64,000 bases of DNA from Chlorops oryzae (taxonomy: Eukaryota > Arthropoda > Insecta > Diptera > Chloropidae): contig CM035806.1 in the NCBI GenBank assembly GCA_020466095.1, positions 8,847,251 through 8,911,250 of the forward strand, written 5' to 3'. Positions within the stretch are counted from its first letter, which is position 1. Every line of letters starts with the position of its first letter. Under the pieces are notes generated by a model. The model ran no database searches. It was not told where the DNA came from and was given only the letters and a program-made list of their open reading frames with translations. The position numbers were made by a program, and so were the translations under genes. This document shows, one piece after another, positions 42,841-58,375 of this stretch.

Positions 42841-43266
42841 TTGTAGTGCTGCCTGTCTTTGGTTTGCACTTGTTCCGCTTTGGCTGTGCTTGATTTACGA
42901 TTGATTTACGATCATCACGTTTATACCCGTACACGACGACGATGAAAAGGCGGATACGGGGTCTCAAAATCTTGAGGGAATATGCACACACACACACACA
43001 CACGCACACACATCCATGTGAGCACTTGTTTAGGCGCGCGTAGGAACTTACGCAATCATAAAGTTGTTCATAAAAATGTTTAAATGGATAGAAATAATGG
43101 CAAAGATAACCACACGTTCAGGTACTCAGACCATGCAGACACCCAGCCGGAAATTTTCTCATAAAGGACGAATTCATTAATTTTTTTCACCAAGGATATC
43201 AAGGGGGAAATTTGAGTACTTCTCAATTACAATGGCATTGTCATCGATAGAAGTATCGATACGACG

Positions 43267-44668
43267 CACAGTGGGATTGCTCCATACATCGTGCGGCAAA
43301 AAATAGAAGGAATAGTCCTATCACAATGAAAACTGGTATGCGGATGTAAATTGAGGTCATTAAGATATAAACTAAAATTTATCGAAATCGCTTCACACAT
43401 TCAGGTATCCCCCATAGACCCCCACATGCAGTTTTGTATGGCATGTTACATCTAAAACTCAACCGATTTTAATGAAACTTTGTCAGAATGTTGTTTATAC
43501 TCAAAAACGAATATACACCTAAGTCTGTTTTTACACGGTAGATTGGTTCCAGAAGAAGCCGTGTAAAAAAAAACCGTGTAAAAAAAGACATTGATCTTTA
43601 AGCTAGTGTTCGCAAACTATCGATAGCACTATTGATACTATCGATGGTTTCAGACTTTTTTCTTTCATAAATACTTTTTTGTGATATGAACATACTTCGC
43701 AAAAATTAAATTTGACAAAAAAAATTTAAGTACATAAAATTTCAAATCGTGCTAAATGGTAATAAAATCGTGTAAAAAAATTAAAAATATTCAATTTTCA
43801 AACCGTGTTATATCAAAACCGTGTAAAAAAACCGTGTAAAAACAGACTTAGGTGTATATATAAAAAAATTGTTCAAATCTGACAGTCCCTAGGGGTACCT
43901 CCCCTGGATAACTGCCTTTTCAGTATAAATGTCATCATAGTTTCGTATGTTCTCACATTCGTAAACAAAAATTTTAATATAATGTTTTGTTTTTGTAATT
44001 GACCCTTAGTTAGTTCTTAATTTCTTAAAAACATTGCCATCAGAAATTATAATAAAGCGTTAATGAATACTGATCATCCTTAACATATGCAATGATTTTT
44101 TTCTTTTCTTAATATCCAGACATTTGCGCGGTGATTTTTAACAAAAAAAAAATGGACTTTATCGAGACAATCGTAAGTGGGCGGTAAATTTTTTTTTTCA
44201 TAGATCGTTAGAACAAACTCCAGACTTTTATTTTTTATCAACTAGAAGACAAAGCACGACAAAGCATATAAACTTTTTGTCCATTGAAAAAAGGAAAGGC
44301 GCCATTTTCGAGGTAGAATTTTTGATAGCCCACCTCCTCTTCGATATTCAATAAAATGCCACAGTTTTGAATTCCTTTTAAAAATCAAACTCTAAATTTT
44401 AATAAAAAAAATCACCTTTATAGCAACAGTGGTAGATTTAATCCGAAAAAAAATGGGAACCAATTGGAAAATTTTTTTTTTTCAATTTTTCGAAGAAAAA
44501 ACATTTTCTATCTTTAGCTTAAATTTTTTATATAAAAAAAATTATGTTTTTTGAAAAAACAGTTTTGAATTATTCTTATCTAGAGTTTTCTCATTTAGAT
44601 TAAATCGACAAATCATAAAATTAGGATGGTCAAAAAATCCTATTTTTTGCCGCTGAAATCTCACTGTG
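43267..44668. mobile_element. Transib-like noncoding element T1 with 12/23-type ends
   Basis: A 1402-bp element. The left heptamer CACAGTG (43267-43273) is followed by exactly 23 bases and then CAAAAAATA (43297-43305). The right heptamer (44662-44668, inverse) is followed inward by exactly 12 bases and then the same CAAAAAATA (44649-44641, inverse). Perfect 5-bp duplications CGACG flank it (43262-43266 and 44669-44673). The related element at 41525-41811 carries the uninterrupted site with a single CGACG, which proves the boundaries. No open frame of note remains. The interior includes a nested TA-flanked MITE (43516-43854). Heptamer, 5-bp GC-rich duplication and AT-rich nonamer fit Transib. 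Confidence 0.88.
43516..43854. mobile_element. TA-flanked MITE nested in T1
   Basis: The ends CACCTAAGTCTGTTTTTACA and CGTGTAAAAACAGACTTAGGTG are inverted and flanked by TA (43514-43515 and 43855-43856). The centre holds ACTATCGATAGCACTATTGA and CCGTGTAAAAAA repeats. It is 339 bp and noncoding, of Tc1/mariner type by its duplication. Confidence 0.85.
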
Positions 44669-45394
44669 CGACGGAGTAGATCTACTCCTAATTCGATTAC
44701 CAAATTGTGACATGTACTCTGATGACGGCCAATGCCGCTTGTGTGTAAATTTCGTTAGAAAGTTGGTGTATAATCAGGAGGAGTCGCGGCTCTAATGTCA
44801 TGCTGAGATCATTGATTGTTTCACCGGGACATTTCCGGCTGGACACTCACATGCATCATTGTGCACTCTACATGTACCTACGTATATATTGATACATATT
44901 AGGCAATGGAAGATCTTTCACGATATTCTTAAAACTCTCATAAAGAACGATGAAAACAAATTGGCGCCAGCTTCTTTCAAATATCCTTTGACTGTGAACG
45001 AAGATTAATTCTGCCTTTGAGATAAAAAGAAAATTTTAAGAAATTGATTGGAAAGCTTTTATTCTCCATTCTTAATGCCATAGTTTCATTGCACTTCTCA
45101 ATGTCCAAGAAAAAATTATATAGGTACGTATGTATGTACTTACTTACAAATTCAATTTTGGAACTGACCTGTTATAATACCCTAAACAGATTACACCATT
45201 AATGCAAAACAACGGTTTAATTTTGCATTTTGTCGAGCATTTGTCTTGAATTTGATTCAATTTAAATTATTTGATACAAGTTAAAGCGTGAATTATTCGT
45301 TTTTTGTCTGGCAGCTCTAAGAAAAAAACCTACCGAAGGTTATGATATTTTTGCTAGAGCTGGAAAACGATCGATAGTTACGACCATTGTACGC

Positions 45395-56310: not shown

Positions 56311-57211
56311 ACAAGCAAGGGTGTTATAGTCAGGCGAGCCTGACAATAGAATACCCGACACAGACTCACATGTTTCAATAATTTTTGAACTACGCCCAAA
56401 AACCGGACCACTAAGTAAGAATATTCAAGAGGTTTTTAAGACCATAAGGGGCCCCATATACCGACTTTTGATAGATTTCTTTATGAAAACTGCCCCTTTG
56501 CCACGCCCAGTTTTCCAATTTTTGTTGAACTATAATCGGAGGCTTAAATATACGCTCAAATTTTAAGTTTCATTAAAATATTTCGAAAAAGTCCGATTTT
56601 AAGGCAGTTTTGGGATTTTTGTGACATACCCTAGTACTGGAGGTACCTTTAAAAATGGACCGATCAAAGAAAATTTTTTGGAAGGATGCTTAAGGCTACA
56701 AAGGAAGCATAAGTGCCAAATTTCGTTCAAGTCCCATTTGAATTTCGGGTGTAGGAGACAATTTTCGAAAACCGCCCTTCTGCCACGCCCACTTTACCAA
56801 TTTTTGGAAATTATATTACTGGCCTTTTTAATATGATCAAATATCAAATTTCATCAAAATATCTTGAAAAACTTCGATTTTAGAGCAGTTTTTGTGATTT
56901 TCGTAACAGACCCTGGTACTGGAGGTACCCCGAAAAATGGTCCGATCGGGTCCACTCTCGAACTTGTTCTTACATGTCCCCGTGAGCACGCATACCAAAT
57001 TTTGTCGAGATAGCTCAACTCCTTCGATATGATAACTGTATAGAAACAGACAGACAGACAGACAGACAGGCGGACATGTCTAAATCGAATCTCCTGGTGA
57101 CGCTGATCATTTCTATATATATTTTGTATTATCTATCTCGACTGGTTCTGGGTGTTACACACAACCACACAAACGCAATATACCCTCGACACAGAGTGTG
57201 TCGGGTATAAA
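56311..57211 (-). mobile_element. Tc1-like noncoding element, copy B
   Basis: The reverse-strand copy of the element at 16677. On the plus strand it begins ACAAGCAAGGGTGTTATAGT and CAGGCGAGCCTGACAATAGA and ends CACAGAGTGTGTCGGGTATA. The degenerate repeats with GCCACGCCCA phrases and a short CAGA tract (57049-57075) are present. No transposase is seen. Confidence 0.75.
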
Positions 57212-57214
57212 AAG

Positions 57215-58375
57215 CGCTGATTAATTTTGAAAACGCGCTAAAAAGCACCGGAAATCAATGATTCCCAATTTCTAGTTTCAAAAAGCTGCGTCTAGATTAG
57301 AAACGATGCGACTAAGGCACCGAACAACCATCTCTTTCTTTCCCATATGCCATTCTATATCACAAAATAGTCACGCACAATGTTTCTCTAGTCTGAACGC
57401 AATCACAAAATTAAAGCTGCCAGATTCATCATTGGTTCATCTTTCAGCTGTTGTGTTAGGAACTGTTGCCTTCCAAAAGCACTAGATCTAGCGCGAAAAG
57501 CGTTAAGTTGGCATCACTGCTTAAGTCTATGTCTCGTTAAGTCCGAGGGCTGATTTAAAACAAGCCATGGTGGGGTTCGTGAGGACATGGAAGATACAGA
57601 AGAAGACTTCAGGGCGATGACAATATCACATCTTTCGTTCTCTTTGTTCGTCTTCGACCTAACTGTGCTGTTGTCCTACTCGACTGACCTTAAAACAAAA
57701 ACGGGCTAAGCTTACACAATCAAGCACACACACACAAATTTTTCACAGCAGGCACGCATTTTTTACGATGATGTATACTTAGGTGGAACATGTCCGATCG
57801 TGCAAGGATTAAGGTCACAAAAAAAATGTACACTTAAAATAACTCTTGAGGGAGATATTTCCAAAGCCGACGGAATGAAAGTCATTCAAATGAATTCTAT
57901 CCTGGCCCACTTAAACTCCTCGATGCCTTGATGCAGCCAGCTGGAAAAATTGTATATTCGTATACCCTTCTTACATGGGACCCAAAAGGGTAAGGAAATA
58001 CAAGCTATCATGAAGTTTTGGTTGCCTTCCAAAACGCACCGACGCAGAAAAGTATTTCAGAAGTGGTTTACGGCATAACAAAACTATCCACCGAGATCAG
58101 TTTAACCATCCCCTTTGTAATTCCGAACATTTCGAGAGGGGGCTTGAACCCCCAAAATCACCCTCCCAATACGCTCATAGTTCCCTTTGATGGTATTCGT
58201 CCTGAAAACACATTTCCAATTATTATTTCCCTCCAAATGCAAAACTACCCCGAGAAATGGTACTTTTTTTCAAAAAATTCCTACAATTCTCACTGAATTC
58301 ATGATTTCGGAAACGTATATAAAGCAATGAATTGAAGAAATTCTCAGTCATTCTCAGTCGATCAGGAGAACTATC
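57215..58375. other. Intergenic DNA, nothing recognised
   Basis: Mostly unique sequence. A 92-codon open frame at 58018-58296 has no recognised domain, and no splice or codon evidence supports it. Confidence 0.5.

Follow-up and report, generated by a model that had tools for sequence, protein, structure and literature searches.

A Transib-type transposon with 23- and 12-spaced ends in Chlorops oryzae, probably mobilized in trans by a transposase of the same genome

Structure of the element and its ends

The window, a stretch of 64,000 nucleotides of Chlorops oryzae DNA, contains an element that occupies positions 43267-44668 and carries the heptamer CACAGTG at each terminus, as read directly from the sequence. 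Together with its flanks (43262-44673), the layout is CGACG-(CACAGTG + 23 + CAAAAAATA ... TATTTTTTG + 12 + CACTGTG)-CGACG (Table 1). The left end (43267-43306) consists of CACAGTG, 23 bases and then CAAAAAATAG, and the right end, read on the minus strand (44668-44640), consists of CACAGTG, 12 bases and the same CAAAAAATAG. Such ends, built from a heptamer and an A-rich box, resemble the signals that are cut to build antibody genes. A pattern describing the paired ends matched twice in the window and had 0 matches in each of 100 dinucleotide-preserving shuffles.

An earlier note on this DNA had reported CACAGTG at both termini, 23-base and 12-base spacing on the left and right before the same A-rich box, and a flanking CGACG duplication. 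Direct reading and the shuffle-tested pattern bore out the heptamers and the spacing, and the duplication lies at 43262-43266 and 44669-44673. The note had also cautioned that the spacers could be read as 11 and 22, and rightly: they measure 12 and 23 bases when counted to CARAAA and 11 and 22 in the register of the RSS nonamer, the robust part being the 11-base difference. The RSS nonamer consensus, given as ACAAAAACC in PMC8289069, agrees with the window ends in its CAAAAA core only (GCAAAAAAT). The right-end box has six A's in the window copy and five in most aligned relatives.

Transib elements have termini that begin with CAC within an RSS-like heptamer and a GC-rich target-site duplication of 5 bp; the window copy has CACAGTG at both ends and CGACG on both sides. 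Its assignment to Transib is based on these ends and this duplication, because nothing recognized is encoded in the element, in which tblastn with a related transposase found no transposase remnant.

Comparison with an uninserted copy (L005) revealed a nested insertion of 339 bp in the window copy. The insertion has long inverted ends and is flanked by a TA duplication, from which we take it to be mariner/Tc1-style. Because this insertion interrupts the copy, the element proper measures about 1.06 kb. A stretch 98% identical to the nested element is also present inside another locus, L049. Elsewhere in the window, positions 57115-57255 encode a 48-aa stretch that is 56% identical (E 2e-9) to the Transib transposase of T51, a separate lineage of this genome.

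Table 1. Positions of the element, its end signals and the nested insertion in the window
Feature	Position	Strand	Basis
Left 5-bp target-site duplication, CGACG	43262..43266	.	Direct reading and matched flank
Left heptamer, CACAGTG	43267..43273	+	Direct reading, paired-end pattern
23-base spacer with core CTCCATACAT, recurrent in the family	43274..43296	+	Pattern left the spacer free
Nonamer-like box CAAAAAATA, 23 end	43297..43305	+	Direct reading, paired-end pattern
TA duplication, left of nested insertion	43514..43515	.	Comparison with uninserted copy L005
Nested 339-bp insertion, inverted ends CACCTAAGTCTGTTTTTACACGGT	43516..43854	.	Absent from copy L005
TA duplication, right of nested insertion	43855..43856	.	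Comparison with L005
A-tract of the 12 end, inverted (a T-tract when read from the heptamer inward)	44632..44637	-	Lies where 23 ends have their A-tract
Nonamer-like box CAAAAAATA, 12 end	44641..44649	-	Direct reading, paired-end pattern
12-base spacer AGATTTCAGCGG	44650..44661	-	Direct reading, paired-end pattern
Right heptamer, CACAGTG	44662..44668	-	Direct reading, paired-end pattern
Right 5-bp target-site duplication, CGACG	44669..44673	.	Direct reading and matched flank

Pairing of 23 and 12 ends across the genome

A search of the 442-Mb assembly from which the window comes returned at least 84 matched pieces of the element, a lower bound because 40 of 1013 first-look candidates were scored. 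Over the right part of the window copy, the listed members of its family showed 89-95% identity to it. We then looked for partner ends at loci L001-L038, allowing a wide range of spacers and leaving out L015 and L016, which are the window copy again. A 23-type end was present in 33 rows. For 18 of these, a partner end flanked by the identical 5 bp was located, in every case without a mismatch, and the partner was 12-spaced in 18 out of 18. These copies comprise 13 of the window family, including the window copy, and five of two sister families. Of the other 15 rows, 12 had no partner found (in two of these, L009 and L024, there is a 12-type end with a mutated heptamer), two (L017 and L035) were partnered by a 12-type end whose flank did not match, and one was a chance overlap; the script missed two more 23 ends, at L006 and L038. 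Among the target-site duplications from matched copies, 16 out of 28 were CGNCG. The two sister families retain remnants of a transposase C-terminus some 400-750 bp inside the 23 end.

In pattern searches of the genome, a heptamer, a spacer of 7 to 24 bases and CAAAAAATA after CGG matched 139 times, compared with 0 for the reversed-pattern control. Of the 100 such matches listed, 98 had a 23-base spacer and one a 24-base spacer, and the last was the right end of the window copy, with its spacer of 12; the pattern misses the other 12 ends, which have CAAAAATA, CAAAAATT or CAAAAAATC instead. A pattern for 12 ends matched 174 times, again with 0 matches for the reversed-pattern control. On contig C1, 70 23-ends and 92 12-ends matched the patterns exactly (the 23 ends of the autonomous family described below do not match and are excluded). 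Within 4 kb, 44 out of 47 neighbouring pairs were inward-facing and 12/23; within 12 kb, 46 out of 51 were inward-facing, and all 46 of these were 12/23. No inward pair on this contig joined two ends of the same type, the remaining pairs being tandem or outward. As all end pairs share descent, this uniform pairing does not amount to independent trials of a pairing rule.

These data bear on whether the 12-spaced end of the window copy could be a private deletion from a 23/23 element. The right-end box, with five or six A's, shows that small indels arise at this end, and nothing else that we found speaks for such an origin. Against it, 12 spacing is present in all 18 flank-matched copies, two sister families among them, the autonomous relative is 12-spaced too, and the 12-end pattern has 174 genomic matches with none for its control. 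Because the 12 end recurs in the flank-matched family and sister copies, we reject a private deletion as vanishingly improbable. The earlier note had proposed asking whether both ends of the family share one spacing: the family keeps 23/12 in all of its flank-matched copies, which rules out a symmetric family consensus.

An autonomous relative and other Transib lineages

Searching the genome with the RAG1-family profile PF12940 gave 27 matches of 15-29 bits, five of them above the family cut-off. Three of these loci, L056-L058, terminate at a 23-type end akin to the left end of the window element. Five others (L059-L063) carry a 12 end on the 5' side of the transposase, CACAGTG-GTATTTCGGTGG-CAGAAATTC, and a 23 end on its 3' side, CACAGTG-GTATTGCTTCATACATTTCTTGG-CAAAAAATA. 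L059 is 99.67%, 99.77% and 99.74% identical to L060, L061 and L062, respectively, and L063 is 99.77% identical to it over 2,205 bases and 96.8% over 863. A genome-wide search that allowed up to two mismatches found 11 23-ends and 11 12-ends of this family, all 22 of which were mismatch-free over 40 bases. They form ten pairs, eight spanning 3,048-3,055 bp, one 4,342 bp and one 6,637 bp, with identical 5-bp flanks in 10 out of 10. Opposite the eleventh 23 end (C2:8473714-8473753) is a 12 end that has small deletions, and the flanks of the two differ.

The eleventh 12 end belongs to a hybrid element (L074:59-1468; G000:C1:102845198-102846607) with a CGGCG duplication on both sides. In this element, the 12 end has 671 bp with 99.85% identity to the young autonomous family, and the 23 end has about 287 bp with 94% identity to a sister family. 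The hybrid reflects either a cross-family 12/23 pair that moved together or later gene conversion.

All five copies, L059-L063, have an uninterrupted main exon frame of about 551 aa. The first-exon frame is open in L059, L060 and L062, is shifted in L061 and is not among the frames of more than 100 aa listed for L063. Splicing of a predicted 66-base GT-AG intron, worked out on L059 alone, would yield a Transib transposase of 622 aa. Residues 78-530 of the 551-aa main exon match HzTransib chain 6pqn (E 1.1e-116). In the alignment, D126, D225 and E436 of HzTransib, the catalytic triad described in PMC6941560, correspond to D245, D349 and E559, numbered along the spliced protein. We infer an offset of 17 between the 6pqn chain and the numbering of that paper, which fits all three residues. 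Among the listed frames of the 3.05-kb copies (L059-L062), none of more than 100 aa lies on the coding strand beyond the two transposase exons. The RAG2 profile PF03089 had no match in the genome, a weak result since no control genome matched either. The autonomous relative encodes a predicted RAG1-core-like DDE transposase of the Transib kind that is apparently intact, and it is young and recently amplified. A full-length copy encoding such an enzyme had been suggested as a target for searching, and L059-L063 provide it with the same layout of ends. A transposase of another class is rejected for this relative by the PF12940 and HzTransib matches.

How closely is the window element tied to this family? 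Their consensus ends agree at 33 out of 40 bases on each side, and the window element is 64% identical to the autonomous family over 228 bases; with no transposase remnant in the window element, the connection is drawn from these ends and this identity. The 12 end of the autonomous family reads CAGAAAT and has no clean A5. The divergence among window-family copies makes that family older than the autonomous copies, and the original mobilizer may have been another relative.

The earlier reading of the window element as a nonautonomous Transib-like transposon is supported by these comparisons, given the retained 23/12 ends and the Transib-type relative. We consider it probable (roughly 0.85), judging from sequence, that it is a non-coding 23/12 Transib-type transposon, likely moved in trans by a Transib transposase like that of the autonomous relative in the same genome. 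Under our proposal, the transposase would bind both ends, would cut with a hairpin, as reported for HzTransib, and would insert the element at CGNCG-like sites, staggered by 5 bp. The KRGRP-containing N-terminal region of the enzyme, which we presume to be comparable to the nonamer-binding region of RAG1, would read the A-rich box at its distance of 12 or 23 bases from the heptamer, the two box positions lying one helical turn apart. By analogy, the 23/12 asymmetry may be used as a pairing rule.

Ten further transposase-bearing loci, one copy each, represent other Transib lineages of the genome. In seven (T39, T46, T48, T50, T54, T55 and T68), both ends and a matching 5-bp duplication were fixed by taking the best-scoring pair with equal flanks; the ends of T44, T45 and T51 were not fixable within the flank taken, and these three were left out of the end comparison. 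All seven have symmetric ends. In 6 out of 7, both ends have an A-tract that begins 23-26 bases from the heptamer; T54 has none at this distance, and its two ends run parallel. Counting the 12/23 lineage, one of the eight lineages with determined ends is therefore asymmetric in this genome. T55 (L071 joined with L055) is a distant symmetric Transib with A-tracts at 14-15 and 26 bases of each end, possibly a double-box state. In a tree of 37 rows (27 of the 120 listed outside relatives, from 390 found, and the ten lineages of this genome), the autonomous transposase fell into a supported clade with relatives of 67-80% identity; the tree rows carry no data on the ends of outside elements. Apart from Transib, a cluster of nuclear mitochondrial COX1 copies, one almost complete, is present at G000:C3:87.5-87.8 Mb. 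In a protein comparison of COX1-like nuclear copies (at least 120 matches, from 7,997 scored candidates), the top five among those listed were from the chloropid genera Thaumatomyia, Anatrichus, Elachiptera, Oscinella and Cadrema, at 96-97% identity, ahead of other fly families at 93-96%, which makes a chloropid host likely at the level of family. An open frame of the window had no homologue at E 1e-5.

Anatomy of the ends and relation to 12/23 signals

Consensus 23 ends were built from 7 autonomous, 18 window-family and 9 and 7 sister-family copies, and consensus 12 ends from 6, 15, 3 and 4 copies, respectively. Because copies had been picked by exact 23/12 spacing and spacer motifs, the consensus alignment itself is no test of spacing, support for which comes instead from the flank-matched family and autonomous pairs. 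All consensus ends of the four 23/12 families (8 out of 8) begin with CACAGTG, and CATACAT recurs in the 23 spacers, though the search pattern placed no constraint on the spacer. Within a family, the two ends can be aligned once 11 bases, about one helical turn, are omitted from the 23 end. The 12 ends have an extra conserved stretch, ATTTTTYGACC, which was not a criterion for picking copies. It contributes an A-tract in inverted orientation that, counted from the heptamer, lies at base 24 of the consensus sequences and base 25 of the window copy; the A-tract of the 23 ends lies at base 25. Across all four families, the proximal box and distal tract of the 12 end (44632-44649 in the window) together form a palindrome-like CAAAAAT..ATTTTTG.

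An inverted A-tract at the 23-type position of the 12 end means that both ends may be read at one distance. The ends could then be functionally symmetric, with an A/T tract some 24-25 bases inside the heptamer read at both, inverted at the 12 end, and with the 12-spaced box secondary. Consistent with this, the T-tract starts at base 24 in the 12-end consensus of all four families, one base from the start of the 23-end A-tract; 12-end positions 31-40, unused in picking copies, are invariant at 9 out of 10 across the families; six of the seven other lineages have their A-tracts at 23-26 at both ends; and the young autonomous family has a distal T6 but a proximal CAGAAAT. However, GGCARAAA stands at 12 or 23 bases in 8 out of 8 consensus ends (of copies picked by that spacing), the flank-matched and autonomous copies independently support the 12/23 spacing of the box, the two ends of each family align with an 11-base gap, and the distal tract of the 12 end is opposite in polarity to that of the 23 end. 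On balance, we find functional symmetry somewhat unlikely and retain the 23/12 reading.

The ends share with the vertebrate 12RSS and 23RSS the heptamer CACAGTG, a CAAAAA core and spacers that differ by 11 bases, but they match the nonamer in its core only, and the fly A-tract lies one base nearer the heptamer. The HzTransib transposase of Helicoverpa zea (PDB 6pqn and five other entries) shares homology with residues 78-530 of the 551-aa exon and aligns at the DDE residues, whereas PMC8289069 describes the HzTransib ends as symmetric and as bearing little or no resemblance to a nonamer. ProtoRAG of amphioxus is likewise a RAG-type transposon with asymmetric ends and 5-bp GC-biased duplications (PMC8289069), but its spacing is 27/31 and its genes are a RAG1L-RAG2L pair. 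Another likeness, by description, is to Transib5 of D. melanogaster and Transib2, N1, N2 and N3 of An. gambiae, reported as 12/23-asymmetric in PMC8355894 (after Kapitonov and Jurka 2005), which have heptamer-like termini and spacers of 12 versus 23 (plus or minus 1). Compared with these, the present families belong to another fly, are multicopy and coexist with a young autonomous relative. No title in the literature searched named a chloropid Transib, and among the matches listed, none naming chloropid genera names Transib. Further accounts of what is known are given in PMC7204232, PMC11844651 and PMC4411706.

Whether this likeness is informative about V(D)J signals is a separate question. 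It may be convergent or fortuitous, and the odds that it carries no information on their origin seem to us even. One in eight lineages with determined ends is asymmetric in this genome, most Transib families, HzTransib included, are described as symmetric (PMC8289069), and the RSS register is off by one base, all of which fits convergence. Against convergence, asymmetric 12/23 Transibs are reported from other Diptera (PMC8355894), and PMC9435367 describes Transib Subgroup I as all asymmetric, Subgroup II as including both kinds and a RAG-like element as asymmetric too, treating asymmetry as inherited from an ancestor. A more far-reaching picture would be that a fly transposase enforces 12/23 pairing by itself, without RAG2, on CACAGTG ends, and that the double inverted A-box of the 12 end marks the helical turn removed from an ancestral 23/23 end, making the family a living intermediate in the origin of the 12/23 rule. 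We regard this picture as unlikely; the ancestral asymmetry set out in PMC9435367 speaks against its symmetric ancestor.

12/23 Transibs had already been published, and the additions made here are the families of another fly together with a young autonomous relative. Where the 12/23 rule came from has long been asked; HzTransib, a Transib whose biochemistry has been described, has symmetric ends. With an apparently intact, recently amplified 12/23 Transib beside symmetric Transibs in one genome, 12/23, 12/12 and 23/23 substrates can all be presented to one enzyme in the absence of RAG2. Such substrates would tell whether a pairing preference can belong to RAG1-type enzymes alone or depends on RAG2, and the transposon and its predicted transposase would offer good experimental prospects for testing 12/23 pairing without RAG2.
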